From NCBI RefSeq assembly GCF_000219535.2, contig NZ_CP007806.1:2948501-3012500 (forward strand): a stretch of DNA of 64,000 nt. The letters are read 5' to 3'. Numbering within the stretch: position 1 is the stretch's first letter; every line of letters begins with the position of its first letter. Both the position numbers and the translations under genes were made by a program. This document shows, in pieces, positions 17,821 to 64,000 of the stretch. The stretch is from Brevibacillus laterosporus LMG 15441. Lineage in GTDB: Bacteria; Bacillota; Bacilli; Brevibacillales; Brevibacillaceae. Below the pieces are notes generated by a model. It was given only the letters and a program-made list of their open reading frames with translations. It made no database searches and was not told the DNA's origin.

Positions 17821-20800
17821 TTAAAAATCGAATTCTTCATCCTCAAAGGCATCTGGTAGCGCTGACGAATCTGAGTTCCTACTAAGCTCAAAACTAGCGA
17901 TTGTCTTGTCGAACCGAGATGGGATTTGCTTTAAAATTTGTAAATAAGCTTGCCCCAAGTCCTCCGCCGTTTCTCTTTTGAATAAGTTACTTGAATAGTA
18001 CAGATCAAATAATAGACCCTCATCAGGCGTCTCAACAGCGATGATGGATAAATCCATTTTGGAGGTAGTATCCGCAAAGTCATAGGCTATATAAGTTAAT
18101 TCTTCTGATTCTATCCTTGCTTGGTTCATATTTTGAAGGGTAAGCATCGTTTGAAATAGTGGTGTTCGACTCGTATCCCTTGGGATTTTAAGCTTTTCTA
18201 CTAGAGCATCAAAGGGATAATCTTGATGGTCGAACGCTTTAAGTGTTCGTACCTTTATTTCTGTAAAGAATTCTTCAAATGTTTTCGCAGCTTGAGGATA
18301 ATTACGCATTGGTAGGGTGTTAATAAACATCCCTACCACTCTTTCCAGATCAGCATGCTGCCTTCCCGCTACTGGGGTGCCAACTACAATATCCTCCTGT
18401 CCTGTACATGTAAACAGCAAAATATTATAGGCTGCTAACAGAAGCATATATAAGGTAGATTCAGTATCTTGAGCGATTTGATAAAGTTCTTCACTTTCAG
18501 TCTTAGGAAGGGTAAAGGAAATTCGTCCCCCTGCATTTGTACGTATGGAAGGGCGTGGATAATCGGTCAGCAAACGTAGAACTGGTGGCTGAACAGCGAA
18601 CGTATCCTTCCAATATTGTTCTTGTATCTTTACCTGCTCAGAAGCAAACCATTGATTCTGCCAATGTGTGAAATCCTTGTATTGTATAGGTAATGGCAAA
18701 AGTTCCTTTCCTTTATAGAAATCAATCAAATCCTCAATCAGGATTGCCATAGATATACCATCAGAAATGATATGGTGCATGTCCATGATCATGAAATGAC
18801 GCTCTGGTCCTAACTCATACAAGCCGACGCGAAACAGAGGTGCCTGTGATAAATGGAAGGGTTTTATGAATTCTTGAATTGCATCACGAAGCTCATCCTC
18901 TTGTATCTTACGTTGACTCAGATGAAAGGTTACCTGTTTATGGATTCGCTGAACCTGCTCTTCTCCTTGCCACTCAAACGAGGTACGGAGTGCTTCATGA
19001 CGTTCAATTAGTTGAGTAAGAGCTGTTTCAAAACGTTCCGGATTGACTGGACCTTCAATGATTACGCAAGTAGGAATGTTATAGCTTGTATCCCCTTGAT
19101 TCAGTTCGTCGACAATCAGCATTCTCCTTTGGGAAGCAGAAATCGGGTAATACGAACGCTCTTCCACGGGTTCCAATGGGGTTTGAATAAAGGCAGAATC
19201 TCCAGACACCTGAATCAACTGCTCCAGCGACTCAATGGTAGGATGATCAAAAATTTGTTTGACCGAAAGACTCACATTAAGTTCTTTGTACAGGATAGTA
19301 ACCAGCGTCATTGCCTTTAGAGAGTGACCTCCTATCCGAAAAAAATGATCCTGTATTCCGATTTTGTCTAGCTTCAAAATATCTTTCCAAATCCGTACCA
19401 ATTCCTCTTGCAGCGGAGTTTTAGCCGCCTCATATGAAGTAGCTGAAGTAAGGTAATCTTTCAATTGAGCTAGTGCTAATCTATTGATTTTCCCATTTGG
19501 AGTAAGCGGAAATTCAGGCAACTGCATAAATTGAGATGGAAGCATATAATCTGGTAAATGGCTTTGAGCAAACTCGGAAATTTCATCAAGGGTTACTTCA
19601 TTTTCCGAAACGAAATAAGCAATTAAGTATTTGATCCCATCCTCGTCTGTTTTATCAAGAACAATCACTTCTCTCATGCTAGGGAATTGTAATAGCCTTG
19701 CTTCTATTTCCTCCAGCTCGATACGAAAACCTCGAATTTTTACTTGATGATCCATTCTACCTATAAATTCCAGATCACCACTTTTAAGCCAACGCATTAA
19801 ATCACCAGTTCTATAGACGCGTGGCACGCATAGATGCGGTGTATCAATAAAACGCTCTTTGGTCAGCTCTGGAGCGTTAAAGTATCCATTCCCCACGCCT
19901 TCCCCACCAATACATAATTCACCTGGAATTCCCGGAGGAAGCAGTTGCAAATGTTTATCTAAGATATAAAGCTTGGCGTTATGTATTGGTTTTCCAATAG
20001 GAACCGTAGTAAGTTGCTGTAATTCCTCCTTGTTCAAGATATGGTACCCAGAAATATCTGTACACTCTGTTGGACCATATGTGTTGGATAACTCCGCTCT
20101 AAAATGGGGCGATTTGATCCAAGGCTGTAGTTGAACCATGTTGATCGGTTCACCACCAAGACTGATGTGGCGAATGCTTTTCAGCTTAGCATAATCATCG
20201 GCGACATTTTCATAAAGTAAGGGATAAAATGCACTAGGAGCGCAGTTAATCGTAGTTATCTGCTCTCTATCGATCACAGTCGACATCTGACGATAATCGA
20301 AAGGACCCGGGGAATAGATGATTAATCTTCCTCCAACAAGTAACACGCTAAACAAATTTTTCTGTGCCAAATCAAAACTATTGGGAGCAATCAGCAAAGC
20401 CCGTTCATTCTCTGAAAAAGACAGCTTCTTGATATACCAGTATAAAAGATTAACAAACGAATGATGTCTAATCATAGCTCCTTTTGGATTTCCTGTAGAA
20501 CCTGATGTATAGAGAACATACAGAATTCCTTCAGGTTGATAAGGTAAGTTTAGGTTTTCCGTAGGAGCAGTTGCTTGCGTCAAAATTTCTTCGATGATGA
20601 AAGTACGAGCTTGTTCTTGTGTGCCGTTCATTTTATGTTTTTGTTGGGTTAGTATCACAGAGGCTTGAGAATGTGTTAGTAAATAGTTGATTCGCTCCTC
20701 TGGATAATCAGGATCGACTTGTAGATATGTCGCACCTGATTTAACAATACCGAGGATACCAATTAATAATTCAAGAGAACGTTCCACCATAAAACCAACA

Positions 20801-21771
20801 ATTGTCCCCGCACTCACCTCTTGTTCATGTAAGAACCAGGCAACTTGATTCGCACGATCATTTAATTCACGATAGGTTAATGATTTCCCTTCGAATACAA
20901 CAGCAATCCGATCAGGCGTCCGTTCTACCTGCTCTTCGAAAAGCTGGGATACCGATTTATCGCGTGGATAGTCAAAGCTACTCACGTTAAAATCATAAAG
21001 TAACCGACAACGCTCAGCTTCATCTAGGAATGAGATTTCCATTAAGCTTTTATCCGGTTCTCTCATCACTTCAGAGAGATAATTGTCTAGATGATGAACG
21101 ATCATTTGCATCCGATCATGACTATACAGACTAGCATTATATTCAAGAGCGAGTTGTAAATGATCCGCTTTCTGAGAAAAGCTAAAGAGCGAGTCAGCTT
21201 TTAATTGGCTTACGCTGCTTTTCTCGTGGATGTCGTCTAGCATAATGCTTGTATTACATAATGGGAATATCCCATCTTCAACCTGCAATCCAGCTTTTGT
21301 CATCACCTGGTAAAATGGATAGTTGGAATTTTGGCTAGCTTCCTTGATGTTTTTACTCATTTGCATAAGTAACTGCTTAAACGTCATCTTATTTCGTTGT
21401 ATCTGAATACGTAACGGTAGTAATTTATTTACGATTTTCAATTCTTGCTTTTGTTTAAAGACAGGTGTACTAAACACAATATCATCTGCTTCGGTGTAGC
21501 GTGAAAGAAGATCTGCAAGAGCAGTAGCAAGAATCGTCAATATTGCATATGGAGATTGATTTGCAATCATCCGAATTTTTTCTGTTACCTCTGCTGAAAA
21601 CGAATGAGTGATGACTCCCTTTTGGAATTCCTCCAGCGATGTACGTAAAAATTCAATAGGGAACGTAGAAAGAGCACTAATCCCGTTCATTTGATCTAGC
21701 CAGTATGCTTCTTCTTTTTCTAATTTTTCATGAGAGAGTATGAGATTTTCTGTGATTTTGCTAGTCGTCAT
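17821..21771 (-). CDS. NRPS, C-lobe fragment - A - T - C, last NRPS gene of the cluster
   Basis: This 1316-residue protein starts with only the C-terminal half of a condensation fold (about residues 8-255, lacking HHxxxDG). An adenylation domain follows (about 275-765; YTSGSTGNPKG at 421, NTYGPTE at 563, YRTGDL at 653, PNGKINR at 758), then a carrier domain with Ser817 in IGGHSLKA, and a complete condensation domain (about 874-1290) with HHIISDG. The pocket residues read from core motifs are D-L-K-N-S-G-T-D-I; I cannot assign a substrate. It ends in DEEFDF. There is no thioesterase, so as the last gene it either passes the chain to another protein or releases it by condensation with an amine. 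GGAGG precedes the ATG. Confidence 0.9.
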   Translation of the reverse strand: MTTSKITENLILSHEKLEKEEAYWLDQMNGISALSTFPIEFLRTSLEEFQKGVITHSFSAEVTEKIRMIANQSPYAILTILATALADLLSRYTEADDIVFSTPVFKQKQELKIVNKLLPLRIQIQRNKMTFKQLLMQMSKNIKEASQNSNYPFYQVMTKAGLQVEDGIFPLCNTSIMLDDIHEKSSVSQLKADSLFSFSQKADHLQLALEYNASLYSHDRMQMIVHHLDNYLSEVMREPDKSLMEISFLDEAERCRLLYDFNVSSFDYPRDKSVSQLFEEQVERTPDRIAVVFEGKSLTYRELNDRANQVAWFLHEQEVSAGTIVGFMVERSLELLIGILGIVKSGATYLQVDPDYPEERINYLLTHSQASVILTQQKHKMNGTQEQARTFIIEEILTQATAPTENLNLPYQPEGILYVLYTSGSTGNPKGAMIRHHSFVNLLYWYIKKLSFSENERALLIAPNSFDLAQKNLFSVLLVGGRLIIYSPGPFDYRQMSTVIDREQITTINCAPSAFYPLLYENVADDYAKLKSIRHISLGGEPINMVQLQPWIKSPHFRAELSNTYGPTECTDISGYHILNKEELQQLTTVPIGKPIHNAKLYILDKHLQLLPPGIPGELCIGGEGVGNGYFNAPELTKERFIDTPHLCVPRVYRTGDLMRWLKSGDLEFIGRMDHQVKIRGFRIELEEIEARLLQFPSMREVIVLDKTDEDGIKYLIAYFVSENEVTLDEISEFAQSHLPDYMLPSQFMQLPEFPLTPNGKINRLALAQLKDYLTSATSYEAAKTPLQEELVRIWKDILKLDKIGIQDHFFRIGGHSLKAMTLVTILYKELNVSLSVKQIFDHPTIESLEQLIQVSGDSAFIQTPLEPVEERSYYPISASQRRMLIVDELNQGDTSYNIPTCVIIEGPVNPERFETALTQLIERHEALRTSFEWQGEEQVQRIHKQVTFHLSQRKIQEDELRDAIQEFIKPFHLSQAPLFRVGLYELGPERHFMIMDMHHIISDGISMAILIEDLIDFYKGKELLPLPIQYKDFTHWQNQWFASEQVKIQEQYWKDTFAVQPPVLRLLTDYPRPSIRTNAGGRISFTLPKTESEELYQIAQDTESTLYMLLLAAYNILLFTCTGQEDIVVGTPVAGRQHADLERVVGMFINTLPMRNYPQAAKTFEEFFTEIKVRTLKAFDHQDYPFDALVEKLKIPRDTSRTPLFQTMLTLQNMNQARIESEELTYIAYDFADTTSKMDLSIIAVETPDEGLLFDLYYSSNLFKRETAEDLGQAYLQILKQIPSRFDKTIASFELSRNSDSSALPDAFEDEEFDF

Positions 21772-21817
21772 GAATGCAAGCCTCCTAGATGTAGAAGATA
21801 GATGATTCCTCTAGACG

Positions 21818-23419: not shown

Positions 23420-23438
23420 GCAAATCTCTCCTCTTCTT

Positions 23439-26400
23439 CTATAAATTCTCTAGATAATCAGCTAATTCTTCAATCGAGAGCGTATGATTCCCTACATCAC
23501 TTGGAGTGATCTCTTTTTCTTTCTTATTGAGACAATGATTGATAATGTCAAGCAAATGTTTTTTATATAGATCAATCATATTTTGTACTGTACTAAAATC
23601 GTACATGTTTTGGTTATATTCAAAGTGAAGTCGTAATGCACCATTCTGAATGATGCCAACAATTTCAAAATTGTACTGTCTCTGTACCCTGCGACTCAGA
23701 GTTGGACCTGTACGAAAAGGTGAAATTGAAAAGGCATCTGTTGAGATATCCTGATCAAATTGTCCCAGGTAATTGAACATAATTTGCGGCTTTACATTTA
23801 GATGACTGACGGTCTCTATGTCAGCAGATGTTACGTAGCGTAAGATGCCATAGCCAATTCCCTTATTCGGAACCTTCCGCAGATACTCTTTGGTATATTT
23901 AATATGATAGGCGATATCTGTGTCTTTTGTTTCAAGCAACACTGGATAAAGAGAGGTAAACCAGCCAACCGTCCGCGAAATGTCTATATTCTCACTGATG
24001 GGTTCTCTACCATGACCCTCTACATGTATGAGAGTGCGATTTTCACCAGTCCACTCTCTCATTGTAAGAGCAAGTGCCGTTAACAATACGTCATTTATTT
24101 CTGTGTTGTAGGCATGGTGAACTTCTTTTAATAAATGGTTAGTCTCTTCCTGATTAAGTTCCATGGTTAATGTCTTGCTATCCTGCATCCGATCATCAAT
24201 GACAATATGATCCTGAGGCAAGGACGCTATCGGTACATTAGCCAGTTGCTCCCAATAAGTAGATTCCTTTAGAATGGTTTGACTATTGGCATAAACATGA
24301 AGCTCTGTTGACCATTCTTTAAACGAATCCGTTTTATCCTGAAGAGAAATGGCTTCTCCGTTTTGTACCTGCATATAACCACTGGCAAGATCTTCAAGCA
24401 GAATTCTCCAAGAGATTCCATCAACTACTAAATGATGAATCGCGATCAATAAATGATCACCCTGATCCGTTTTAAAGTGTCCAATCGCGATCAACGGACC
24501 TGTGCTAAGTGTAAATCCAGCCTGAATATTAGATGCTTCAGCCTCGATCATAGCTGGCGTCACATGCTTACCTCTGAAATCTAAGCATGTATAATCAAAC
24601 AAACGATCTGAAAGTCCACGGATATTTTGTATAACGTGCTCCCCTTCTACATGAAACGTCATACGCAGAGCATCATGGTGTTCAACAAGTCGTGTAAATA
24701 CCTTTTGGAGCAATAGCTCGTCCCAGCCTTGTTCATGATGAAGCATTACTGCGTGATTGTAGTGATGGGCATCTGTTACATTTTGCTGAAAGAACCAATG
24801 CTGAATAGGTGTTAGACGTACATTCCCCTCAACTAGCTGGTTTGTTGTCCGTTTTGTTTTCATTTGTTTTACATGCATAGAAAGCTCTCTAATGGTTGGG
24901 TATTTGAATAAATCATTGATTTGAATTTTGTATTGATATTTCTGAATTAAGGAAGACACTTGTATCGCACGTATCGAATCTCCACCCAGTGAGAAAAAAT
25001 TGTCATGAACGCTTACATTAGTGACACCTAGGACTTTTTGCCAAACAGCAACTAATGCATCCTCTTTATCATTGGAAGCCTCCACATATTCAACGCCCGT
25101 GTCTATCATGGTCCAGTCTACTGGTAAAGCACTCCGATCTATTTTGCCGTTTGGAGTTAAAGGTAATTGTTCCAGGGGAGCAAAATATGCAGGGATCATA
25201 TAGCCCGGTAACCTCTCCGCAAGGAAACTGCGCAGTTGAGTTACATTTTTGTTTATTTTATTTGTTCCTGCTTTCCAGACAATGTAGGCAACGAGTTGTT
25301 TATCATCATTTTCATCCGTTTGAGTAGTAACCGCTGCTTCTGCAATATCTGGATGTTTAAGAATCGCTGTTTCAATCTCGCCTAACTCCATGCGATAGCC
25401 ACGTATTTTGACCTGATAATCTTTTCGATCTATAAATTCAAGTGTTCCATCTGCTCGATATCGCCCCAAATCACCTGTTTGGTACAATCGAGACTGTGGA
25501 TCGGAAGAGAATGGATTCGGAATAAATTTCTCACTAGTCAAATCTTCTTTATTCCAGTAACCTTTCACTACTCCTTTTCCACCGATATAAATCTCACCGA
25601 TCACCCCAATCGGTAGAATATGATGGTGCTCATCAAGAATGAAAATTTGGGTATTAGCAATCGGGTTCCCAATGTAGGCAATTTGATCTGTCTCAGCTAT
25701 CTGATGAATCGCCGACCAAATTGTTGTTTCGGTCGGACCATACATGTTGTATATGCTTGCCTTTGTTTGCCTTTGTATCTGATGCATCAGAGAAGCTGGG
25801 AAAGCTTCACCGCCCACTAGCAAGGCCTCAAGAGATTGTAAAAACTTCTGAGAGCTAGGATCAGCGGCAATCATCTTGAGCCGTGACGGCGTCGTTTGCA
25901 TCATGGTGATCGGACGGATACTCGGAGTTGTATCGCTAGCTAAAGCTTTGACCTCGCTTTTTCTAGCGTACTTATCCTTGAAAGCAGCTAAGTGATGCAA
26001 GCTTTGAATTACAGAAGCATGATCAATACCAAAATCGAGTAAACAAGCGATTTCATTCACACCGATATGATAGAGCTGCTCAACTAATTTATGACAAGTC
26101 TTTGGTGTCCCAAGTAAAGTCGCCGTATTCCAATAGCGTTGAAAAGCGACTTCCAGAATTTGTTCAATATCCTCCTCTGATACGTTGTTCATATCCAGCA
26201 TATCTGTGCCGATAGTAAGATTTTTAGCCAGATTACGTATCAAGCTCACACTAGATCTTAGATAGTCACAAAATGGTTTTTTTACTTTGTCATGTACATA
26301 ATCAATATCATCATCAATAAAGGTATGAAGCATGAGTGACACCTTGAACAGCTTTGGATCATACCCATTCTCGCGGAGGGTCTCATGATACAGACGAATA

Positions 26401-29126: not shown

Positions 29127-29153
29127 ATTTCACCTCTGCTCATGTATAAGAGA

Positions 29154-32100
29154 TCATTCTTCTAATAGACTTAAAATGTCATCCAAATCTGACATAGATA
29201 AATTGTTGTCCCCAAAATCGCTTGGTGTAAACTCTTGGGTCTTTTTACTCGTACAGTGACGAATAATTTCTTGTAGATGTCTGAAAAAACCATCCAATAC
29301 CTTTTGCATCGTCTCTCGCGAAAATTGATTTCTGTCGTAGTCCATCCAAAATGTCAGCTCTCCATTTTGGATCATTCCTGTAAAGATTAGCTTATGGGTG
29401 CGACTGTTGGCATTGCTGATTGGATGGTCTGGTTGGATGGAGGAAAGCTGAAAAATAGCATCTTCCTTTTCCTCATCTATTTCTCCAAGATAGTTAAATA
29501 AGTAAGTCGCTTGCGATCCACCTGACAATGCTTGTTTATTCATGTCCGTTCCAAGGTATCTGAGTAGCCCATATCCGATTCCTTGATTGGGGACTTTCTT
29601 TAACAGTTCTTTCATTTCCTTTATTTGCATGGAGAGATCAGCATGATGTCTCATATCCAAAAGTATTGGATACAGTGTGGTAAACCATCCCACAGTCCGA
29701 GTTATGTCCAGTTGGTCACTCAGCTCGTGGCGTCCGTGCCCCTCGACATCAATGAGTATCATGTCAGAGTTCTTCCATGAGCGAAGAGACATGCCGAGCC
29801 CCGTTAAGAGAATGTCATAAATTTGAGTATTGTAGGCACGGTGAACCTCTTTTAGCAATAGCTGAGTATCTGATGCAGAAAGTCTGCCAACCAGCCGCTC
29901 GTTCTCGCCTATGCTCCCCAAGGCACGGTCTTCTTCTACAGAGTTCTCTTTTATTTTTCCCCAGTAAGAAAGCTCTTTTTGCAGCTCAGATGAGGTTGCA
30001 TATTCGTATAGTTGCTGTGACCAGACAAGATAAGAATCTGTTTTATCAGGAAGCGAAACAGCTTGATTATTCACAGCAAGCTGATATCCTTGCTCTAGAT
30101 CCTCTAATAAAATTCGTAAAGAAAGGGTATCGACAATCAAATGATGGAAGGTAAGAAATAAATGATCTCCATAATCCGTGTGGAATAAACCAACGTTAAT
30201 TAGCTTACCACCCCACAAATCAAGGCTTGATTGCAGCTCTCGACATATGCTTTGAATGTCACTTTTCACCTCTTTATCTGTTTTTGATTTACCTGTCAAA
30301 TCAAAAACCTGACATTCATAGACCGGTTGAGCTATATCCCGAATCGTCTGTACAATGGAATTTCCTTCCTGTCGAAAGGCCATCCGTAGAGCATCATGAT
30401 GAGCAGAGAGCTTGTCCAGAACCTTCATCAAGCTTTCATAGTCAATTGGAGACTTGCTATCTAACATCACTGATTGATTATAATGATGTTTTTCTTCCAT
30501 CGGCTGGGCAAAAAACCAGTGTTGAATAGGAGTCAGAGGAACGATTCCTTGTACAACTTCCTGATTAGCCCGGTGATTAATTGGCTGTAGATGTGGTCGC
30601 AATTCTATAATCGTTGGATATTCAAACAGGCTTTTCACTTGAAGCTTGTATCCACGCTTATAAAGCTCAGAAACGACCCTCATGGCTTTTATTGAATCTC
30701 CGCCTAAATCGATGAAGCGATCATGAATACTAATCTTATCCTCGCCAAGTACCTGGCTCCAAACACTGATAAGTACCGCTTCCTCATCATCTCTGGCCGC
30801 TTCAAACACAGTGGAGCCTACATCACTTCTAGTCAGTAGCGAAAGCGCTTGACGGTCAATTTTTCCGTTTGGTTTAAGCGGAAAGCTAGATATCTTGCTG
30901 AAAAAATGTGGCAACATATACGCAGGTAAATGCTGCATTAGATATTCACGTATTTCTTGTGTCGATGTTCCCCTCTCTCCTTCTGAATTCATGACTAGAA
31001 AGGCTAAGAGTTGCATATCTCCCTGATGGTCTGGTTCGGCAAGCACGATCGAATTAGAAATTCCCGGATGCTGGTTTAATGTATGCTCAATCTCGCCTAA
31101 TTCGATTCGGTACCCACGTATTTTTACTAAATGATCGGCACGCCCGAGACATTGTAGCGTTCCATCCGGGAGCCATTTACCAATATCCCCCGTTTTAAAC
31201 ATTTTTTCATCCTTCGTTTTACCAAAGGGATTCGTTACAAACTTTTCCTCAGTCAATTCAATGCGATTCAAATACCCTTTCGCTACTCCCTCACCAGCTA
31301 TACAAATCTCTCCTTGCACTCCGATGGGAGCCAGCTTTTGATGCTGATCAAGAATATAGATTTGCGTATTTGCGATTGGCTTTCCTATTGTTATATTTTC
31401 GTTGTGCTTTGTAGCTAGTCTAGGTATTTCTTGAACCGCAGACCAGATTGTTGTCTCCGTAGGACCATACATGTTGAATATTCTTGCATTGGTTTTCTTA
31501 TGGAGATCGTCTATATATTGGGCAGGAAATGCTTCTCCTCCTACTAACAAAATCCGAAGAGACTGTAACAAACGCTGTGAGTCATGCGCATCCATTAGTA
31601 GTTTAAGTCGGGACGGTGTGCATTGCATCATCGTGATCATCTCAACATGCGGTTGGTCAAGATAATGGTCATAGCTACCTAACGTATCCTCCTGCGTGTC
31701 TACCAAGACAAGACGAATTCCTCTAGTCATTGTCCATAATAGCTCCAAAACAGAAATATCAAATGAGATGGTTGTCACCGATAGAAACGTATCACTCTCT
31801 ATAGGCTGTAGGCTTTCATCCATCCCGACAAAAAAATTCCCTACATTTCTATGGGTTACCATAACACCTTTCGGATTGCCTGTTGAGCCTGATGTATAGA
31901 TAACATAAGCTAGATTGTCAGCGTTACGGATCGTGTCTAGCCGAGCTGTTGGTTCCGTATCTATCAATTCTTGATCCCGATCAAGAACCACAAGCGAAAT
32001 AGGTTTGTATTCAGCAGAATCATTATGCTCAATGTGATTCAAAAAAGCAGATTGAGTAATGACTGCCTTCATCTTGCTATCATGAATCATATAAGCGATC

Positions 32101-33161: not shown

Positions 33162-33237
33162 CGCTACTTTTTTCTCCTCTCCATTTGCATGATTGCCCCT
33201 GGTTATGCATTTCCTCTAGGTTTTCTATATAAGTCCC

Positions 33238-33276: not shown

Positions 33277-33299
33277 AGACTTTGTGTTTTCATACACCA

Positions 33300-46172: not shown

Positions 46173-46208
46173 AGATGTCTCACTCCTACTTCTTCAGGTT
46201 ACATTGAC

Positions 46209-46254: not shown

Positions 46255-46288
46255 ATCTTTTTGAAAATACCGATCCTGTCGAAAGTTA

Positions 46289-54037: not shown

Positions 54038-54209
54038 TGTTTCCCCCATATACATCCACTCCATTTGTACTCTTGTCGGCCTTCTATTCAGTTCAAAAAC
54101 GTACTTAGAAAAACAGAAGTTGATGAAAAAAGAAAAATGTACATACGCCAGAAAATTCCATGACTTAACAATATCATACAATTAAAAAAAATTCACTAAT
54201 ACTATAATA

Positions 54210-54256
54210 AAATAAGGAAAAAAGGTAAGACCGTGGTTTTTATCCCAAGGTCTTAC
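54210..54256 (-). terminator. Rho-independent terminator inside the NRPS cluster
   Basis: GTAAGACC (54225-54232), then a mismatch and TGG, pairs with the strand at 54245-54256. On the minus strand it is followed by TTTTTTCCTTATTTT. It lies 17 bases past the stop of the 2587-aa NRPS and upstream of the next NRPS. I see no convincing promoter in the rest of this 235-base gap. Confidence 0.75.
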
Positions 54257-54272
54257 TTCCAATCCATTTTAT

Positions 54273-57200
54273 TTAAAACTGAAAGTCCAATTGATCAGAA
54301 ATATCCATTTCGATTAAGTCATAGGATTCAGCAATCTCTATATCACTTAATTTTGTACCCGCTTCATTAACAATGATCGTTAGCAGCTTAAGAAAGGATT
54401 CTCCGAGAATGTTGATCGTACTCTCTGTAAATAATGCATTGGCATACTCAAATTGAAATACTAACTCCTCATCAGCTTCTATCGTAATGACGCTTACATC
54501 AAATTTAGACATACGATATTTATAATCAAAGCGAGATATGGATAGCTTATCAGTAGCATCATTACCTTCTGTGATGTAAGGCTCCTCAATATTTTGCAGG
54601 ATAAACATGGTGTCAAACAGAGGATTTCTGGACTCATCCTTTGCTGCATCCAGCTTTTCTACGAGCATGTCAAATTGATAATCCTGATGATCAAAGGCTT
54701 GTAACACATGCTCCTTAACCATAAGCAGGAACTCGGTAAATGTCTGTTGCGTATCAGATTGTATTCGGATGGCCAATGTATTGACAAACATACCGATTAC
54801 CTTTTCCAAATCTGCATGATGTCTGCCAGCAATCGGTGTTCCGATAATGATATCCTGTTGATGAGCGTATTTGGATAGCAGCACGTGATAGGCAGCAAGT
54901 AACACCATGTAAAGTGTTGTACCTGTAGTGCTAGCTAGATTACGCAATCCTAACGTCAATTCTTTATCGGCAAAGAACTCAACAAAACTACCCTCAAAGC
55001 TTTTCACAGACGGACGCGGATAATCTGTTGGCAACCCAAGCACAGGTAATTGACCGCTAAATTGCTCTAACCAGTAATTCTCTTGACCTTGCATAACCTC
55101 AGACGCCAGTAGCTTGTTTTGCCAAGCTGAAAAATCCTTGTATTGAATTCTTGGTTCTGGAAGTTGCTTTTCCTGATAGAATTGCACCAGTTCATCTAAC
55201 AAAATAGCTATGGATGACCCATCCATGATGATATGATGCATATCCAGAACAAGTACATGGTATTCATCTTCTACTGTGACCACGAAAACACGTAGCAGTG
55301 GTGCCTTGCTCAAGTCAAAAGGAGCCACAAGTGACTGCACAACGGAGTAGAGCTGTTCGTGTGTTGAGGTCACTTCTTTTATGTCTAGCTCCAGCTTCTC
55401 CTGAACATATTGAACAGGCTCTCCTCTTTCCCATCCGAAAGAAGTACGAAGAATCTCATGACGCTCCACCAGTTTTTGAAAGGCTTGATGTAGACGCTGT
55501 TTGTCCACTTTTCCCTCAATAATAAACATATTCGGAATATTATAGGCGATACTCTCTGAATCACGTAGATTTACAAGAAACATCCGTTTTTGTGCAGAAG
55601 AAAGCTGGTAGGCTTCTTGTTTTTGGACAGGTTGGATTATCGGATAAGCTTTTTTTCCACTGCTCTCTACTAGCTGTGCTAAGTCTTTGATGATAGGTCT
55701 GTCAAAAAAGTCCCGTAACGAGATATCTACCTGTAGCTCCTTATTGATACGTGAGATGACGGTCGTTGCCTTGAGTGAATGGCCACCGTTTTCAAAGAAA
55801 TGATCTTCAATACCTATCCCAGCCGTATCAAGCACGCTTTCCCAGATCGCAATTATTTTTTCTTCAATCTTGTTACGCGGTGCTACGTATTTGCTTTCTA
55901 GTACATTTCGATCAGGTTTTGGCAACGCCTTGCGATCTACCTTGCCATTTGCAGTCAAGGGGAGTTTCTCCATTTTTACGAAGAAGGCTGGAATCATATA
56001 GTCTGGCAATGTATTTGCTAAATGACTTTTCAACTGATTAATTGGCACATCTTGTTTTAGCACCACATATGCACATAAGCTCTTCTGACCTCTTGCATCC
56101 TCAATATCCATTACTACTGTTTCTAAAATATTGGGATGATTGTTGATCTGATTCTCAATTTCCTCCAATTCAATACGGAATCCCCGAATTTTAACCTGAT
56201 AATCTTTACGCCCAAAAAACTCAAGTGTTCCATCAGAGAGCCATCGTCCCATGTCTCCTGTTTTATAGAGTCGTACCCCTTTATGATCAGCAAATGGATC
56301 GTCCATAAATACTTTGGCGGTTCTTTCTGGATCATGTAAATAACCTCGTCCAACCCCTATGCCAGACACACAAATTTCACCTTTAATTCCAACCGGGCAA
56401 AGATTCATTTTTTCATCCACGATGTACACCTTAAAATTGTGCAGAGGTTTACCAATCGGAACGATTTCGCTCTGAGGCAATTGATCTATGATATGAATCG
56501 TAACATCGTCTGACGCCTCACTAGGCCCATAAGCATTCGCTAGCGGAATATGCGGGAAGAGCTTAAACCATCTCGCTACCAGGCTACGTTTAATTGCTTC
56601 TCCTGTGACACTTACATATCGAAAACAATCTAACGACAAGTTGTTTTCTTCTACATGATCTAACATCACAGACAAAACAGATGGAACAACTTGGAAGATG
56701 TTTATCCGATCTTGAATAATTTGTTCAATGCAAGCGTTAGGCTCCATTGTCATCTGATTATCATAAATAATGGTTGTTCCACCTAAGATAATAGATGTAA
56801 AAAATTGCCACACCGAAATATCAAAGCAGTGAGAAGCTGTTTGAGCGATTCGACAATCTTCACCCAAATTAAGCCGCTGTTTCATCATATGTAGATGATT
56901 CGTAAGTCCGATATGCTCTACCATCGACCCTTTTGGCTTGCCCGTTGATCCTGATGTATAAATGATATAAGCAAGTTGATTAGGCTCAACCCTCACTCTG
57001 AGGTCATCTTTCATTTCCTGATTGATGGCATCCATTTGAGCATCGAGGCAAAGAATGGTGCCCTTGTAGTTTTGTTTAATCTCAGGCGTTACAAATGCAG
57101 ATATAGTTATCAGTACCGTCGCTCCTGAATCTTCGAGAATACCCATAATTCGCTGTATAGGATAGGCCGTATCAATAGGGATATAAGCCCCACCTGCTTT

Positions 57201-60200
57201 CCAAATCCCTAGAATACTTTCCATCATTGGAATGGAGCGTTCTAAGAAAACAGCAACGATCTCTTCCTTTTGCAAACCAGTTCTTTGGATAAACCGCGCC
57301 ATTTGATTTGCCCGAGCATTTAACTCTTCATACGTGATTTGTTGATCTCGATGTATCGCAGCAATGTCAGTAGGTCGACATTCCACCTGCTCTTCGAATA
57401 ATTCATGCACCGTTTTGTCCATTGGAAAATCACATGTAGTGTTATTAAAATCATCGAGAATTTGTTTCTTTTCCTGTTTTGTCAACATCGTAAGATCAGA
57501 AATAGGTTGTTCTGGATTCTCCACAATGGATTCAAGCAGCTCTCGATAATGCTCCATCATCCGGCTAATGGTGGTAGAAAAAAAGATATCCATGTTATAT
57601 TCCGCTACCAACAGTAGGCCGTCTGGATGCTCTGCGATATCAAACAAAAGGTCAAACATAGACGTGCCTCTATCAATTTCCGGATGAATCAGCGTCTCAT
57701 CAGAGAGTTTAAAATCTGTGCGACGAGTATTTTGCAATGTGAACATCACCTGAAAAATGGGCGTGATGTTTTTGGTACGTTCAGGTTGTAAAACCTCCAC
57801 TAATTTTTCAAATGGAACATCCTGATTGGAAAACGCTTCAAGCGTAACCTCCCGCACTTGCTTTAAGAGTTGAGTAAATGTTGGATTATCCGCCAATTGA
57901 GAGCGTAATACAATTGTATTAGCAAAGAATCCAATCATCCCTTCAGTCTCCAAGCGTGTCCGATTAGCAATTGGAGAACCAACTAGGATATCTGTTTCGC
58001 CCGAATATCGACTAAGCAATACGTTAAACGCTGACAGCAAAGCCATATAAAGAGTCACACCTTGACGCTTGCAAAGAACATGTAATTTCGTAACAAGCTC
58101 TTTCGGCATAACTAACGTGTCCCGCTGACCTGCACCACTGGCTACACTCGGACGAGTCCGGTCTATTGGTAATTGCAAAACAGGTAAATCTCCAGCCAAC
58201 TGCTTTTTCCAATAGGCTAGTTGCTGATTCATCACTTTACCATCTAGCCATTTACGCTGCCATGCGGCAAAATCGGCATATTGTAGCTGCATTTCTGGTA
58301 AAGGTGACGGTTTTCCTTGGCTAAATGCTTCATATAAAACAGATAACTCATGTGTAAATATCTGTAAGGACCAACCATCCATAATAAGGTGATGCATGGT
58401 GTAATAAAAGACATAATTCTCATCATCTTTTTTGAATAATATGAACCGCACCAACGGACATTTCGTTAAATCAAACGGTCGATTAGCATCCTCATTGGCC
58501 ATATCAATGATACGCTGATGGCGTTCTGAAGCCACAACGTCACTCATATCAATCACCGGAATGCGAATGGGCTGGAATGGATAACTGACCTGATAAGGTT
58601 TTCCGTCTTTTGAGATAAAGCTGGTGCGCAGAATTTCGTGTCGACGAATAATCTCATTGACTGCACGCTCCAGAGCATCAATGTTCAAATTCCCTTTGAG
58701 TGTATTTGCCACTGGGACATTATAGGTTGCACTTCCAGGTTCAAGCTGCTCAACAAACCAAACTCCCTGCTGTGTATACGATAGGACAAGATCACTATCG
58801 CGTGACACCGGAACTAATGGAACTGATACAGATTGCTCTCCGGAAGCTATGATTTCGTCAATTTGTTTTCCCATTGCTTGGATCGTTGGATTTTCAAAGA
58901 ACGTTCGCAAGGATATTTCGATATGAAACGTATGGTATATTCTCGATAACAACTGAGTAGCTAGTAGGGAATGGCCACCACTATTAAAAAAATCATCAAT
59001 GATACTAATGCGATCAATTCCTACTATTTCTTTCCAAAATCCAGCTAAAATGAGCTCTGTTTCTGTAATAGGTTCAATAAGCGGTGTATTGCTTTCCTCT
59101 CGTTCTATTAAAGGAGCCGGCAATGCTTTTCGATCTACTTTCCCATTTGGAGTAACCGGCACATGATCCAAATAAATAAACGCAGCAGGGATCATATGCA
59201 CTGGCAATTTCTTCTCTGCATAGCTGCGAAGCTCACTAGCGGAAAGTATCTCTTGATTGTAGGTCGTAAAATAAGCAATCAGTTGCTTGTTGCTATTTTG
59301 ATCTTCTCTCATGATTACTACTGCATCTCGAATTTCTGGATGCTGACCCAAAACAGCTTCAATTTCACCTAATTCAATTCGAAATCCGCGGATTTTCACC
59401 TGATCATCCTTGCGTCCGATGTAGCTTAAAGTCCCATCTGGCAAGTACCGAACAATATCCCCGGTCTTATATAAACGATCCGTTGCGTTTGGTGAAAATA
59501 TATTCTTTATGAAGCGTTCATTTGTGATCTCTGGTCGATGTAAATATCCTAGAGCAAGACCAGGCCCTCCTACATACAGCTCACCTGGAACTCCGATAGG
59601 GACGATTTGTAAATATTGATCGAGAACGTAGACCTGAGTATTAGCAATAGGCTTCCCGATTGGGATTGATAAAGCATCAGCAGGGACTTGCGTAACATGA
59701 TGGGTCGTAGTAAACGTTGTACATTCTGCCGGACCATAAACATTAATCAGCTTCTTCGGCTTACCTTTTTCTAAGGCTATTCTTACCCATTTCGCATCAG
59801 CCGCTTCTCCCCCGAATAAAACCGTAATATTTGTAAACATGTCAGGACTTTCCCCTGCATATTGGTTGAACAGGGCAGTCGTGCATAGCATCACGGTTAT
59901 CCCATAACGTTGAATCTCTTTCTGGAAAGCATACGGAGATAGAACAACGTCCGGCGCAATAAGCACAAGCGTCGCACCATGCAGTAGCGTCCCCCATAGC
60001 TCAAAGGTAAATGCATCAAAGGATGTGTTATTAATCTGCGCTAAACGATCGCTAGGCTCCCATTCTATATAGGAATGATTTTTTACGAGACGAACAATCC
60101 CCTGATGTGTAACCCTTGTCCCTTTTGGGATACCTGTTGATCCGGAGGTATAGATAACATAGGCCATATTCATAGCAGTAGCGTTGCTATTAGGTGTTGA

Positions 60201-62036
60201 TAAGCTTTCCTGATCAAGGTCCTGAGCGTCGCTATCTAGTAGTACTAGTGTCAGATCATCGTTTGAAAACTGTTGATAATGAGACTGTTTGGTAATCAGC
60301 ACAGATAATTGAGAGTCCTTGATAATAAAGGAAATTCTCTCCTCAGGATAGGTAAGATCAATCGGTAGATACGCTGCTCCCGCTTTCAGTATTGCTAGGA
60401 TGCCTATGATCATCTCTGGCGATCGTTCCATACTGATACCCACAAGCGTGTCTGGCTGCACACCTAATCGTTGAAGTCGATGAGCCATCTGATTGGATTT
60501 CTCATGTAATTCTCGATAGGTAAGCTGACTTTTTCCGTCAATAATTGCGATTTGGTCTGGAGATTGTCTAACCTGCTCTTCAAATAACTCTTGAACAAGC
60601 GTTTGACTTGGAAATGGAATATTCGTCTCATTCCAAGTCGTAAGAAGTAGGTTACGTTCGGAATCATCTAGGAGAGAAACCTGCCCGATCGAAGTTTCCG
60701 GATGAACCATGATATCTCTTAGCATTGTAGTTAGATGCCCTGTAAAGCGTTTGATCGTTTCCTCTTCAAAGCGTTCCGCATCAAAAATGATGGTCCCTAC
60801 TAAACCTGCTTCTTGTTGGGAAATAGCAAGAGCAAGCTCTGTATCATCACTCCAGAATGGATCATCTATCTCACCCGTTACAAATAAAATCTGAAATGCA
60901 GACTCTCGATAGACCGAAAATTCCTGCTCAAAAGCGCTAGCGTCTACTGTACGTTGGACACGCTGAAGCAATTCATTGAAGCTTGGATTTCCAGAAAAGT
61001 CACTGTATATAGAAAGCGGAGCATCTTTGCTAGGATCATCCTGTCTGATCCATCCGCTTACAATGCCGTTCTCACCTGTATAACGGTGAAGAAGCAATTG
61101 CCAGACACTTAATAGCGTAACAAAAAGAGAGCTGCCAGCTGTTTCTGCTAGTTTTGTAAGTTGTTTGCTTTCCTCATTTGAGAGAGTAAATTCAATAGTT
61201 CCCCATTTGTTTGGGGCATGATGTAAAAGAGAATGCTCCAATGGTAGCTGTAAGGTAGGCACACCCGTCAGTAACCCATTCCAATGCGTGAGAAGTTGAT
61301 CCATTGCTTGCAGTGAATCCCCCGTTTTACTGGTAATCAAGTGTAAAACAACAAACAAACGATTCACTAGCTGTCCAACACCCTCATCACTGTAGAGAGC
61401 TGGGTGATAATCTAATTGGAGAATCAGACCCTTATCTTGTTTTTTAAAATGAAACACCATATCAGCAGGAATAGACTCTACACTTGCTTGATCATGTATG
61501 TTATCTAGCAGAACGATGGTTCCAAAGATCGGTCTGCTTTTTTCCTCATTTGACATCCCCAATAAGCTAGCAATTACATGATGCGGCAGACTTTGATGTT
61601 TCACTGCATTGGCTATCGTAGCTTTTAAGGTAGGAAGCACCTGTTTCCAGGTTAGGGAACGCTCTAAGGAACTGCGAATCGGCAAGACATTGGAAATAGC
61701 CTGCTGACCCCCCTCTTTTTGTTGAAAAACAGGCATTCCGACAATAATATCGGAACGCTGTTGGTATGTAGACAAAAGATACTTTATTCCCGCAAGCAAA
61801 AACATGTATATGCCGTAGTCTGAGTTGTTACTCATGCGCATAATGCTTTCCACTATTGCAGGTGGAATTGGATAGCTGACGGAATTCATATCCTCTACTT
61901 TATTGGCAAGAGGGCGTGTTTCAACGGGGAAACCACTAAAATCAGCGACACCCTCCAAGTTCTGAAGCCAGTAGGAGCGTTCTTGCTCAAATTGTCCGCT
62001 TGCAAGTAAAATGTTATGCAAAAAATTGGTGCTCAT
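54273..62036 (-). CDS. NRPS, two tandem C-lobe fragments - A - T - C - A - T - C
   Basis: This 2587-residue protein opens with two successive condensation C-lobes (about 8-245 and 255-465), neither with HHxxxDG. Then come an adenylation domain (480-975; YTSGSTGIPKG at 629, NVYGPAE at 765, PNGKVDR at 963), a carrier (Ser1023), a condensation domain (from about 1083, HHLIMDG), a second adenylation domain with pocket D-I-W-Q-S-T-A-D-D, a carrier (ENGGHSLKA) and a terminal condensation domain (HHIIMDG) ending in DFQF. The first pocket, D-A-F-L-L-G-V-T-F, resembles branched-chain Ile/Val codes. The second is acid-rich, and I infer a basic substrate such as diaminopropionate or diaminobutyrate. As the first NRPS gene visible in the operon it may hold the loading module. 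AAAGGGGG precedes the ATG. A terminator follows the gene. Confidence 0.9.
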   Translation of the reverse strand: MSTNFLHNILLASGQFEQERSYWLQNLEGVADFSGFPVETRPLANKVEDMNSVSYPIPPAIVESIMRMSNNSDYGIYMFLLAGIKYLLSTYQQRSDIIVGMPVFQQKEGGQQAISNVLPIRSSLERSLTWKQVLPTLKATIANAVKHQSLPHHVIASLLGMSNEEKSRPIFGTIVLLDNIHDQASVESIPADMVFHFKKQDKGLILQLDYHPALYSDEGVGQLVNRLFVVLHLITSKTGDSLQAMDQLLTHWNGLLTGVPTLQLPLEHSLLHHAPNKWGTIEFTLSNEESKQLTKLAETAGSSLFVTLLSVWQLLLHRYTGENGIVSGWIRQDDPSKDAPLSIYSDFSGNPSFNELLQRVQRTVDASAFEQEFSVYRESAFQILFVTGEIDDPFWSDDTELALAISQQEAGLVGTIIFDAERFEEETIKRFTGHLTTMLRDIMVHPETSIGQVSLLDDSERNLLLTTWNETNIPFPSQTLVQELFEEQVRQSPDQIAIIDGKSQLTYRELHEKSNQMAHRLQRLGVQPDTLVGISMERSPEMIIGILAILKAGAAYLPIDLTYPEERISFIIKDSQLSVLITKQSHYQQFSNDDLTLVLLDSDAQDLDQESLSTPNSNATAMNMAYVIYTSGSTGIPKGTRVTHQGIVRLVKNHSYIEWEPSDRLAQINNTSFDAFTFELWGTLLHGATLVLIAPDVVLSPYAFQKEIQRYGITVMLCTTALFNQYAGESPDMFTNITVLFGGEAADAKWVRIALEKGKPKKLINVYGPAECTTFTTTHHVTQVPADALSIPIGKPIANTQVYVLDQYLQIVPIGVPGELYVGGPGLALGYLHRPEITNERFIKNIFSPNATDRLYKTGDIVRYLPDGTLSYIGRKDDQVKIRGFRIELGEIEAVLGQHPEIRDAVVIMREDQNSNKQLIAYFTTYNQEILSASELRSYAEKKLPVHMIPAAFIYLDHVPVTPNGKVDRKALPAPLIEREESNTPLIEPITETELILAGFWKEIVGIDRISIIDDFFNSGGHSLLATQLLSRIYHTFHIEISLRTFFENPTIQAMGKQIDEIIASGEQSVSVPLVPVSRDSDLVLSYTQQGVWFVEQLEPGSATYNVPVANTLKGNLNIDALERAVNEIIRRHEILRTSFISKDGKPYQVSYPFQPIRIPVIDMSDVVASERHQRIIDMANEDANRPFDLTKCPLVRFILFKKDDENYVFYYTMHHLIMDGWSLQIFTHELSVLYEAFSQGKPSPLPEMQLQYADFAAWQRKWLDGKVMNQQLAYWKKQLAGDLPVLQLPIDRTRPSVASGAGQRDTLVMPKELVTKLHVLCKRQGVTLYMALLSAFNVLLSRYSGETDILVGSPIANRTRLETEGMIGFFANTIVLRSQLADNPTFTQLLKQVREVTLEAFSNQDVPFEKLVEVLQPERTKNITPIFQVMFTLQNTRRTDFKLSDETLIHPEIDRGTSMFDLLFDIAEHPDGLLLVAEYNMDIFFSTTISRMMEHYRELLESIVENPEQPISDLTMLTKQEKKQILDDFNNTTCDFPMDKTVHELFEEQVECRPTDIAAIHRDQQITYEELNARANQMARFIQRTGLQKEEIVAVFLERSIPMMESILGIWKAGGAYIPIDTAYPIQRIMGILEDSGATVLITISAFVTPEIKQNYKGTILCLDAQMDAINQEMKDDLRVRVEPNQLAYIIYTSGSTGKPKGSMVEHIGLTNHLHMMKQRLNLGEDCRIAQTASHCFDISVWQFFTSIILGGTTIIYDNQMTMEPNACIEQIIQDRINIFQVVPSVLSVMLDHVEENNLSLDCFRYVSVTGEAIKRSLVARWFKLFPHIPLANAYGPSEASDDVTIHIIDQLPQSEIVPIGKPLHNFKVYIVDEKMNLCPVGIKGEICVSGIGVGRGYLHDPERTAKVFMDDPFADHKGVRLYKTGDMGRWLSDGTLEFFGRKDYQVKIRGFRIELEEIENQINNHPNILETVVMDIEDARGQKSLCAYVVLKQDVPINQLKSHLANTLPDYMIPAFFVKMEKLPLTANGKVDRKALPKPDRNVLESKYVAPRNKIEEKIIAIWESVLDTAGIGIEDHFFENGGHSLKATTVISRINKELQVDISLRDFFDRPIIKDLAQLVESSGKKAYPIIQPVQKQEAYQLSSAQKRMFLVNLRDSESIAYNIPNMFIIEGKVDKQRLHQAFQKLVERHEILRTSFGWERGEPVQYVQEKLELDIKEVTSTHEQLYSVVQSLVAPFDLSKAPLLRVFVVTVEDEYHVLVLDMHHIIMDGSSIAILLDELVQFYQEKQLPEPRIQYKDFSAWQNKLLASEVMQGQENYWLEQFSGQLPVLGLPTDYPRPSVKSFEGSFVEFFADKELTLGLRNLASTTGTTLYMVLLAAYHVLLSKYAHQQDIIIGTPIAGRHHADLEKVIGMFVNTLAIRIQSDTQQTFTEFLLMVKEHVLQAFDHQDYQFDMLVEKLDAAKDESRNPLFDTMFILQNIEEPYITEGNDATDKLSISRFDYKYRMSKFDVSVITIEADEELVFQFEYANALFTESTINILGESFLKLLTIIVNEAGTKLSDIEIAESYDLIEMDISDQLDFQF
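60642..62036 (-). other. Tandem condensation C-lobe fragments at a protein N-terminus
   Basis: Residues about 8-245 and 255-465 each align with the second half of a condensation domain. The first has ERSYWLQNLEG and DIIVGMPVF; the second has LQLPLEHS, TIEFTLSNEESKQL and VWQLLLHRYTGENGIVSGW. Neither has the N-lobe with the catalytic histidines. Confidence 0.75.
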
Positions 62037-62063
62037 TGGAATCCCCCTTTCTACATGCTATGT

Positions 62064-63032
62064 TTATTCCAATAGTTGTCCTACTTTTAAATCCTCTGCT
62101 TTTTTCACAAAATAATGCCCCATCGAAATATCAAAAACAGCCATCCCCATAGGATTAAACATAATAGCCTGATCTTCACGATAACTAGATATGGCATTAT
62201 GACAAACCACATCAATAATCGATTTTGTGTCTTCTTTTTGCAAACCACATTGCAAATGCATAGACTCTATATCCGTTTTTTCCCGACATACCTCTTCCCA
62301 GTTGTCTACAATAATTGAACCTTTTACATGCGGGAAAATCTCTGTAGTAAAGTCTCGTAACGAAACATTGAGTAGAAGTGAGCCTGCTTTTGGTGCTGCA
62401 TCAATGTATGGTGCTTTAGAGACTGTGCATGTCATGAAGATATCCGAATGTTGATAGGCTTCCTTCCAGTCCTTAGCAATGATAACCTTCTCTTTCACAG
62501 ATGGGTCAATCGACGTGATGTCAATTGGATTGAGATCATATAAGTAAATATTTTTTATTCGATCTCCCAGTAATGAAGTGACCATCTTAAAGTGATATTG
62601 ACCGATCGGACCCCAGCCGATAATGCCAACCGTGATATCTTTTTGCTTGCGAACATCATCATAATGTTTCAAGATCATTCCACTGACAGAAGCAGTACGA
62701 ATTACACTAAGCAATGCTGTGTTAACAATGGCTTCTGGAACCCCATTCGTTGCGTTATTTAGAATAGTGACGCTGTGCGCTCGTGGAATACCTTGATGAA
62801 TATTATTTGGAAAGCTAGCAATCCATTTAATCCCCGCTTGATTAATCGTACCTCCTACAAAAGCCGGCATAGCAATAATTCGATTTTGCTCTTGTCCATA
62901 GCGTAAATAAGGTTTTATTGGTTGGGAAAAGTCATCTTGCTGTAAGCACTTCACTGCCTGTTCAATAACAGAAGTCGTTTCATCCCAGTTAATTCCGATG
63001 CTCAGCAAGTCCTTTTCATGTAGATATCTCAT
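62064..63032 (-). CDS. sbnB: SbnB-like dehydrogenase (2,3-diaminopropionate biosynthesis)
   Basis: This 322-residue member of the ornithine cyclodeaminase/mu-crystallin family has a Rossmann domain (VGIIGWGPIGQYHF near residue 135) and the family segments GIKWIASFPNN and RTASVSGMI. The sequence is closest in style to SbnB, which oxidatively cleaves N-(1-amino-1-carboxyethyl)-glutamate to give L-2,3-diaminopropionate; ZmaV-type homologues do the same job in antibiotic clusters. The usual partner SbnA, a cysteine-synthase-like enzyme, is not in the window and would be expected to the right. It is spaced 27 bases from the NRPS gene and 21 from the aminotransferase, so it is in the operon. An ornithine cyclodeaminase role (proline) is the main alternative. 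Confidence 0.85.
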   Translation of the reverse strand: MRYLHEKDLLSIGINWDETTSVIEQAVKCLQQDDFSQPIKPYLRYGQEQNRIIAMPAFVGGTINQAGIKWIASFPNNIHQGIPRAHSVTILNNATNGVPEAIVNTALLSVIRTASVSGMILKHYDDVRKQKDITVGIIGWGPIGQYHFKMVTSLLGDRIKNIYLYDLNPIDITSIDPSVKEKVIIAKDWKEAYQHSDIFMTCTVSKAPYIDAAPKAGSLLLNVSLRDFTTEIFPHVKGSIIVDNWEEVCREKTDIESMHLQCGLQKEDTKSIIDVVCHNAISSYREDQAIMFNPMGMAVFDISMGHYFVKKAEDLKVGQLLE

Positions 63033-63053
63033 TCGGTAATCTCCTCTCCCTTT

Positions 63054-64000
63054 TTACATCTTGCTTGTTTCGAAACCGCTCAAGATCTCCCTCGTTGATT
63101 CTTGCAAGATCGCGCAGCCTTTTTGTAATTCATCCCATTCAATGGTTAATGGAGGCAGAAGCTTAACCACGGTATCATTGCGACCTACACACTCGATGAT
63201 TAAACCGCGCTCGTAGCAGCGTTTTGCTATCTTTTTCGCAGTGTTTACATCTGAACCACTAGCTTTAGCCACATCCACACCCCAAATTAATCCCATTCCA
63301 CGAACTTCAATCTGGTCGTGCAGGCTAGCAATCTGTTCATGTAAGAATTGCTTTACATACCCTTCTTTACGTAGAACCTCTGCTTCTAATTGTTCTTGCT
63401 CTCTGTAATGCAAGGCGGCCTCGGCAGCAACAAAGGCTAGTTGATTACCGCGGAATGTTCCATTATGTTCTGCTGGTTGCCAGATATCTAATTCTGGTTT
63501 AAACAACAAAAGAGACATTGGTAGACCATAACCGCTGATAGATTTGGAAAGCACGACAATATCCGGAACAATGGCCGCTCTTTCAAATGAGAAGAAGGAG
63601 CCTGCTCGACCGCATCCAATCTGAACCTCGTCGCAAATCAACAGCACATCATGCTTGTCACACAATTGGCGTAATCTTTGAAGCCACTGGATAGGGGCAA
63701 CGTTAATCCCCCCTTCTGCCTGAATCGTCTCGCAAATGATTGCCGCTGGTTTCGCAATGCCCGAATGGCTATCGCTAAGCATTTTGTCCATATATTCAAT
63801 CGTATCGAACGAAAAATCAGTAGGGTACGGCATAAATGTGACTTGAGGCAAATCAACACCTGCCGCCTGCCGATTGTAGCTATTGGCGGTAACAGACAAA
63901 GCACCTAAAGACATACCATGAAAGCCACCTGTAAAAGCAAAAATACCTGCGCGTTGCTTTGTCTTGCGGGCAATCTTTAGTCCCGCTTCTACCGCATTTG
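63054..64000 (-). CDS. Class III aminotransferase, diaminobutyrate-2-oxoglutarate type, partial at right edge
   Basis: The frame runs from its stop at 63054 to the window edge without interruption, so the N-terminus is missing; an internal ATG at 63914 is not the start. The visible part carries NAVEAGLKIARK, FTGGFHGMSLGALS, LICDEVQIGCGRAGSFFSFE, the PLP lysine in VVLSKSISGYGLPMS, and NGTFRGNQLAFVAA. This is the pattern of EctB/diaminobutyrate aminotransferases, which make L-2,4-diaminobutyrate from aspartate semialdehyde with glutamate as donor. Next to an SbnB-like gene and NRPS genes with acidic pockets, it probably supplies a diamino acid monomer. It could also provide the amine for another tailoring step. 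It is probably an early gene of the operon. Confidence 0.85.
   Translation of the reverse strand, partial: NAVEAGLKIARKTKQRAGIFAFTGGFHGMSLGALSVTANSYNRQAAGVDLPQVTFMPYPTDFSFDTIEYMDKMLSDSHSGIAKPAAIICETIQAEGGINVAPIQWLQRLRQLCDKHDVLLICDEVQIGCGRAGSFFSFERAAIVPDIVVLSKSISGYGLPMSLLLFKPELDIWQPAEHNGTFRGNQLAFVAAEAALHYREQEQLEAEVLRKEGYVKQFLHEQIASLHDQIEVRGMGLIWGVDVAKASGSDVNTAKKIAKRCYERGLIIECVGRNDTVVKLLPPLTIEWDELQKGCAILQESTREILSGFETSKM

Follow-up and report, generated by a model that had tools for sequence, protein, structure and literature searches.

The stretch analysed here (the window) comprises 64,000 nucleotides of the 5.15-Mb genome of Brevibacillus laterosporus LMG 15441 (C1:2948501-3012500) and carries a large hybrid cluster of nonribosomal peptide synthetase (NRPS) and polyketide synthase (PKS) genes. 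A preliminary description had singled this cluster out as unusual, an observation that our analysis confirms. Open reading frames and domain models built for this work identify six assembly-line proteins, all on the minus strand, that contain the eight intact and one eroded adenylation (A) domains previously counted. Using C, T and E for condensation, thiolation and epimerisation domains and half-C for a truncated C domain, these are, in gene order, N3 (54273-62036; halfC-halfC-A-T-C-A-T-C with a tail ending LDFQF), N4 (46289-54181; C-A-T-C-A-T-halfC), H5 (33300-46172; KS-ACP-AMT-C-A(dead)-T-C-C-A-T-C with a tail ending IDFHF), N6 (29154-33161; halfC-A-T-E), N7 (23439-29126; C-A-T-E) and N8 (17821-21771; halfC-A-T-C with a tail ending DAFEDEEFDF).

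The locus does not stop at position 64000; it reaches roughly 76.6 kb on the window scale and contains P2 (64373-70438; KS-DH-KR-T-C), N1 (70464-74249; C-A-T followed by a weak half-C), a separate acyltransferase (AT) gene (74258-75514; PF00698) and an SbnA-like gene named by eye (75619-76572). Both H5, with its previously noted AT-less KS-ACP-AMT module, and P2 lack an AT domain whilst the AT is encoded separately, i.e. the system is of the trans-AT type. Diamino acid supply genes do lie upstream of the window synthetases, as described: an SbnB-like gene for diaminopropionate (Dap) supply (62064-63032, minus strand; TIGR03944 at 314.1 bits, just below the 326.9 cut-off) and a diaminobutyrate-2-oxoglutarate aminotransferase homologue (63054-64343, of which 63054-64000 in the window; minus strand). 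The reported absence of a thioesterase (TE) holds for the locus, with none in domain scans of the window proteins and four upstream proteins at E-values up to 0.001, but, for reasons given below, probably not for the assembly line.

Two of the A domains house further enzymes, also as reported. In N4 a methyltransferase (MT; residues 1705-1970; 48272-49069, minus strand) lies between motifs A2 and A3 of the second A domain, and in N7 a TIGR04020 luciferase-like monooxygenase (MOx; 25923-27011, minus strand; 494.8 bits, cut-off 244.45) lies inside the A domain of the glycine module, between A4 (residue 665) and A5 (residue 1127). The two E domains, in N6 and N7, match TIGR01720 at 150.6 and 157.9 bits (cut-off 74.2). 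H5 contains, besides its aminotransferase (AMT) domain (42138-43355, minus strand), the eroded A domain (39381-40733, minus strand), which has lost motif A3, matches the domain model only in two weak fragments, of 88.5 and 72.2 bits where uninterrupted A domains reach 695-764, and shows an omega of 0.257, the values for four intact A domains being 0.08-0.12. The T domain behind it is intact, and the extra C domain of H5 is without HHxxxD. N3 begins with two half-C domains, the second of which (omega 0.260) is as relaxed as the dead A domain.

Nine-residue A-domain codes were taken from alignment, at what we take to be the code positions. N1, N6 and N7 share DILQLGMIW and can be assigned to glycine with fair confidence; the first code of N4 (DPLQMGMVW; DILQMGMVW in its counterpart in the related genome G029) appears Gly-like, and the second codes of N3 (DIWQSTADD) and H5 (DIWELTADD) appear Dap-like. 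For comparison, a brevicidine-type locus of G029 has two Gly modules with DILQMGMVW and an Asn module with DLTKIGEVG, and an edeine-type cluster contains DILQLGLIW, together with DIWEATMDD where Dap would be expected from what we take to be the edeine residue order. The remaining window codes are DAFLLGVTF (first A of N3), DVLQMGLVY (second A of N4) and DLKNSGTDI (N8). When six of the codes were sought in the open-access literature, only DILQLGMIW occurred, in a single paper.

The synthetases differ in how they begin and end. A full C domain and a short tail (ending DFNF, DFQF, DFHF or EFDF) close P2, N3, H5 and N8, and N3, N6 and N8 start with the C-terminal half of a C domain only. The half-C at the end of N1 and of N4 is weak (8.6 and 23.6 bits), and each of the two proteins lies before a KS protein; N6 and N7 have an E domain and COM-type ends, and N1, N4 and N7 start with a C domain of the QEGxLF type. 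In the brevicidine-type locus, the step from Thr to Ile is precisely where C plus tail meets half-C on consecutive proteins. This pairing recurs in the sister locus of LMG 15441, in edeine-type clusters, in a locus at 4.03 Mb and in a zwittermicin-like cluster of G029, where three small genes separate the two partners; on docking by half or truncated C domains, nothing useful was found in the open-access literature. The last ten residues of N8 are identical in three genomes (G000, G029 and G030). By junction type the gene order is incompatible at N3|N4 (C against C) and at N7|N8 (E against half-C), and if the five compatible neighbours are kept, a single order uses all eight proteins once, i.e. 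N4-H5-N6-N7-N1-P2-N3-N8. Since the junction types are at odds with the gene order, we re-read the protein order in this way; the earlier picture of a line formed by six window proteins in gene order is not supported, there being also at least two more synthetases upstream. In the re-read order, N4 is without a donor and the N8 tail without a partner within the locus.

A search of the LMG 15441 genome with the Asn-T-E starter of a hybrid cluster in G028 gave its best match (50%) at C1:1932082-1936560, which defines a second locus. The protein encoded there, S (C1:1932058-1936566), is a C-A-T-E starter module whose code, DLTKIGEVG, is that of the brevicidine-type Asn module, so that an Asn starter is present at this locus and not at the window locus. 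Beside it lie Q (C1:1925395-1931928; halfC-A[DLTKVGHIG]-T-C-A[DVFYLGGIC]-T-TE), the first code of which we take to be an Asp code and the TE of which matches PF00975 at 5.7e-35, and a ClbP/ZmaM-like beta-lactamase-ABC peptidase protein (C1:1936584-1939676). No further NRPS gene was found in the 80 kb read around S and Q, so this locus has no middle. Prodrug peptidases acting on D-Asn are described as marked by Ser/Thr188, His/Asn257 and Asn331 in ClbP numbering (PMC9889268); aligned to ClbP, with positions mapped by counting along the alignment, the locus-2 peptidase shows Thr, Asn and Asn at 188, 257 and 331, with the match extending into the membrane part. G029 and G030 have retained S, Q and the peptidase as a group, and the gap between this locus and N8 is 1.03 Mb in LMG 15441 and 0.97 Mb in G029. 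Purifying selection on Q and S is clear, with omega values against G029 and G030 of 0.148 and 0.182 (Q) and 0.150 and 0.166 (S), alongside 0.133 and 0.162 for N8.

A census of tail donors and half-C acceptors took in every NRPS locus matched at E-values up to 1e-100 (LMG 15441) and 1e-60 (G029). A donor was a protein ending in C plus tail; C-ending proteins without such a tail were uncounted (2622819-2630597 and 2703662-2717962 in LMG 15441, 5112951-5122103 in G029, one edeine-type and one G028 protein). In LMG 15441 six donors (P2, N3, H5, N8 and the proteins at 2849823 and 4036552) and six acceptors (N3, N6, N8, Q and those at 2837039 and 4033198) form four pairs within clusters, leaving N3 and N8 as donors and N8 and Q as acceptors; in G029 there are seven of each and five pairs, with the same leftovers. 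The simple reading of these leftovers is N3-N8-Q. Because the N8 tail and the Q half-C are both left over, and because locus 2 has a starter and a TE but no middle, Q would end and S would start the window line.

The start of the line was also addressed with a tree of 98 full C domains, half-C and E domains being left out. The first C domain of N4 falls in a clade with the first-protein C domains of the edeine-type, G028 and zwittermicin-like G005 lines and of a second trans-AT NRPS-PKS line of LMG 15441, the 2625-kb line (SH 0.901), and the C domain of S groups with the edeine-type and G028 starters (SH 0.977). N1 was rejected as a line start, its C domain grouping with post-E C domains: it lies inside a clade of 21 (0.843) that holds seven of the eight in-cis post-E C domains and has the N7 C domain as its sister (0.83). 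The combined post-E clade of 28 (0.999) includes one post-T C domain, and the G028 post-E C domain was omitted from its definition because it falls elsewhere.

From the domains, the two loci, their conservation and the junction types, all of which are observed, we infer docking across loci, a protein order, the residues and a prodrug step, and propose, with a probability of roughly 0.6, a single trans-AT NRPS-PKS line split over two loci some 1.03 Mb apart that makes an N-acyl-D-Asn-protected, Dap- and Gly-rich cationic hybrid. Its order would be S (C-A(Asn)-T-E), N4, H5, N6, N7, N1, P2, N3, N8 and Q (halfC-A(Asp)-T-C-A-T-TE), with S and Q supplied by locus 2. The predicted units are, in turn, D-Asn; a Gly-like residue; X (the MT module); a C2 unit with a beta-amino group; the slot of the dead A domain; Dap; Gly; alpha-hydroxy-Gly; Gly; a C2 unit with a beta-OH or double bond; an aliphatic residue; Dap; X; Asp; and X. 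The TE of Q would then release an N-acyl-D-Asn-protected precursor, from which the locus-2 peptidase-ABC protein would remove N-acyl-D-Asn at export. NRPS-PKS lines of this prodrug kind make zwittermicin, edeine, paenilamicin, xenocoumacin and colibactin. The missing starter and TE of the window line are thus probably at locus 2. That S and the peptidase act on this line draws support from the C-domain clade (0.901) and the junction logic, although other lines could use S.

The distribution of the two loci fits their linkage without proving it. The gene for an S12 protein of the window, described below, and Q (at least 86% and at least 85%, respectively; ten best candidates per genome scored for Q) co-occur in only three of 39 family genomes (G000, G029 and G030). 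Amongst five genomes of the genus, S has three orthologues and a 50% relative in G028, and no counterpart was found in G027 at E-values up to 1e-300.

Several points weigh against the split line. Because the three genomes that share them are closely related, co-occurrence of the two loci is weak evidence, and the half-C tree does not resolve partners. N3 could possibly dock directly to Q, with N8 unused or iterative, and the census covered NRPS loci only, such that PKS proteins without a nearby NRPS gene may be missed. Within the line, the P2 C domain lacks the second His of HHxxxDG (IHSLIADQ instead; altered in G029 too), N6 has an E domain (HHLIVDT) after a Gly module, and the C-terminal half-C of N1 is very weak (8.6 bits). 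Finally, S could serve the 2625-kb line or the G029 zwittermicin-like line; no stand-alone Asn starter was seen for either across the stretches read (C1:2590001-2695000 and 65001-165000, respectively).

This last point admits a variant that we regard as tentative, in which Q is the terminator of the window line and S a shared trans-acting N-acyl-D-Asn starter for two unrelated lines in one cell, i.e. the window and 2625-kb lines in LMG 15441 and the window and zwittermicin-like lines in G029; the zwittermicin-like cluster of G029 (C1:91968-127309; assigned here) may borrow the locus-2 starter. It is unlikely that locus 2 belongs to another line altogether, such as the 2625-kb cluster, or is a remnant of a cluster since lost, with the window line having its own start and release. 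Such a reading would draw on the ClbP-like peptidase of the 2625-kb line, the membership of its first C domain in the same clade as that of N4, and the missing starters just described. Nevertheless, among the five genus genomes the 2625-kb line occurs in LMG 15441 only (other matches at most 47%), G029 and G030 keeping S, Q and the peptidase without it; the C domain in which it ends has no tail to fit Q; clear purifying selection acts on Q and S; and the N8 tail would be left partnerless. The cluster concerned (C1:2619636-2654454) has its own S12-ABC peptidase, a second cytosolic S12 gene and an internal Asn-T-E module.

It is similarly unlikely that the window locus with its upstream extension makes up the whole line, read in gene order as N1-P2-N3-N4-H5-N6-N7-N8, with TE-less release either by the terminal C domain of N8 and an amine or by the S12 protein as a PBP-type thioesterase. 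Terminal C domains couple spermidine in edeine and paenilamicin, and that of N8 is intact (HHIISDG); the gene order itself also favours this reading. The S12 protein (PF00144; 21818-23419, minus strand) is encoded between N7 and N8, has no leader and retains SxxK and YSN, and another trans-AT NRPS-PKS cluster of LMG 15441 contains a relative at 37-38%. Against this stand the mismatches at N3|N4 and N7|N8, the grouping of the first C domain of N4 with starter-receiving C domains and the conserved docking-type tail of N8. The S12 protein as the missing TE is weakened by the TE in Q, by relatives in G027 (54%) and G013 (37%) that both lie in short flanks without NRPS genes, and by a profile search in which structure 6ksu, presumably SurE, and Ulm16 (8fek) ranked below many other S12 proteins. 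As a prodrug peptidase the S12 protein was rejected, since residues of the D-Asn peptidases are missing: Asn stands at ClbP position 188 and there is no Asn at 331. A contig search with it returned one locus, in B. laterosporus MSSRFCCT15; its AlphaFold model (mean pLDDT 52.3) was unusable.

The monooxygenase of N7 raises the question of release within the line. In the accounts of MtaG and MelG (myxothiazol and melithiazol) the flavin monooxygenase inside the Gly A domain lies between A4 and A5 and the chain is cleaved there, and in that of SolF (solanimycin) it lies between A8 and A9 and the hydroxyl is kept (PMC10204066). The N7 insertion shares the A4-A5 site with MtaG/MelG (PMC10204066), but N7 ends in an E domain without a TE, and in the proposed order further modules follow. 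An E domain follows the A-embedded monooxygenase in all cases examined (N7 with its G029 and G030 orthologues, G005 and G028), and in G005 and G028 more domains or proteins come after it; other family matches, of which those of LMG 15441 and the G029 copy at 4739269 were examined, are in open frames of 334-435 residues. As glycine needs no epimerase, the E domain after the N7 Gly module suggests that the product retains the hydroxyl and with it a new stereocentre. That N7 is instead the true end, hydroxylation of Gly giving a carbinolamide that breaks to leave a carboxamide at the C-terminus, as for myxothiazol and melithiazol, is improbable: the insertion site, unlike that of SolF (PMC10204066), speaks for it, and the E domain, which is sensible if the hydroxylated stereocentre is kept, and the COM-type donor end of N7 speak against it.

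The proposed split line can be compared with three sets of clusters, the first two assigned here. Edeine-type clusters (G005 and G013) share the C plus tail/half-C junctions, SbnA and SbnB genes, a trans AT, Gly and Dap-like codes, an Asn-T-E starter and an S12-ABC peptidase; in contrast, the edeine line occupies one locus, has no AMT module, MOx module or dead A domain, and differs in order and length. The zwittermicin-like cluster of G005 contains a homologous block, in which KS-T-AMT-C-A(dead)-T-C-A-T-E precedes C-A/MOx(Gly)-T-E, but its flanking modules and genes differ, those proteins have no half-C/tail junctions, and its MOx is 61% identical. The G028 hybrid (C1:36714-73284) combines C-A-T-halfC before a KS, C plus tail/half-C junctions, an Asn starter, an S12-ABC peptidase and A/MOx(Gly)-T-E; unlike the line proposed here it lies in one stretch, has an E-C terminal end and lacks an AMT module. 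NRPS lines at distant loci are familiar from pyoverdine and massetolide/viscosin. Separate synthetase sites are common to those lines and ours, but here the starter, terminator and peptidase would be apart from the whole middle, with half-C/tail docking.

No product or two-locus reading for this cluster was found in the open-access literature (subscription papers, preprints and MIBiG being outside this scope), and to that extent the preliminary view that no known compound matches so large a line with such unusual domains stands; its comparison with spergualin is thin, hydroxylated glycine being the sole common element. Unassigned hybrid clusters in B. laterosporus are mentioned in PMC3940840, and PMC7017464 gives up to 21 of 26 clusters of strain MG64 as without known product. 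A cluster at C1:2487611-2500770, kept in G029, encodes C-A-T, KS-AT-KR-T, a free-standing TIGR04020-like monooxygenase and C-A-T; a link to spergualin would be a guess, its second A code not being a Gly code, and it is worth testing as the source of a small hydroxylated NRPS-PKS product. The sister locus (C1:2837039-2886419) carries NRPS codes for Ser-Tyr-Trp-Orn-Orn-Gly-Orn-Trp-Thr / Ile-Asn-Gly-Gly, resembling laterocidine in what we take, in part, to be its sequence; the G029 copy matches brevicidine. Upstream of the window cluster, FabG-, NHL-repeat-, KAS III-, MaoC-, acyl-ligase- and TetR-like genes (77117-83545 on the window scale; NHL by scan, the others by eye), a group also kept in G029, could possibly provide fatty-acyl supply. 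On its other side, GerA, GerB-permease and GerAC germination genes (13871-17613) adjoin N8 on the same strand and are ordinary chromosomal neighbours.

If the split line is real, cluster-by-cluster mining would misread the product: it would get the order wrong, miss the starter, the prodrug step and the final residues, and wrongly label the line 'TE-less'. Distant synthetases in Brevibacillus and its relatives could then be paired by the half-C/tail rule, in a manner testable genome by genome. Edeine acts on protein synthesis. Paenilamicin is likewise described as acting on protein synthesis (PMC11581978). The product of the window line would be built close to both, as a cationic hybrid in which alpha-hydroxyglycine accompanies two Dap-like residues.

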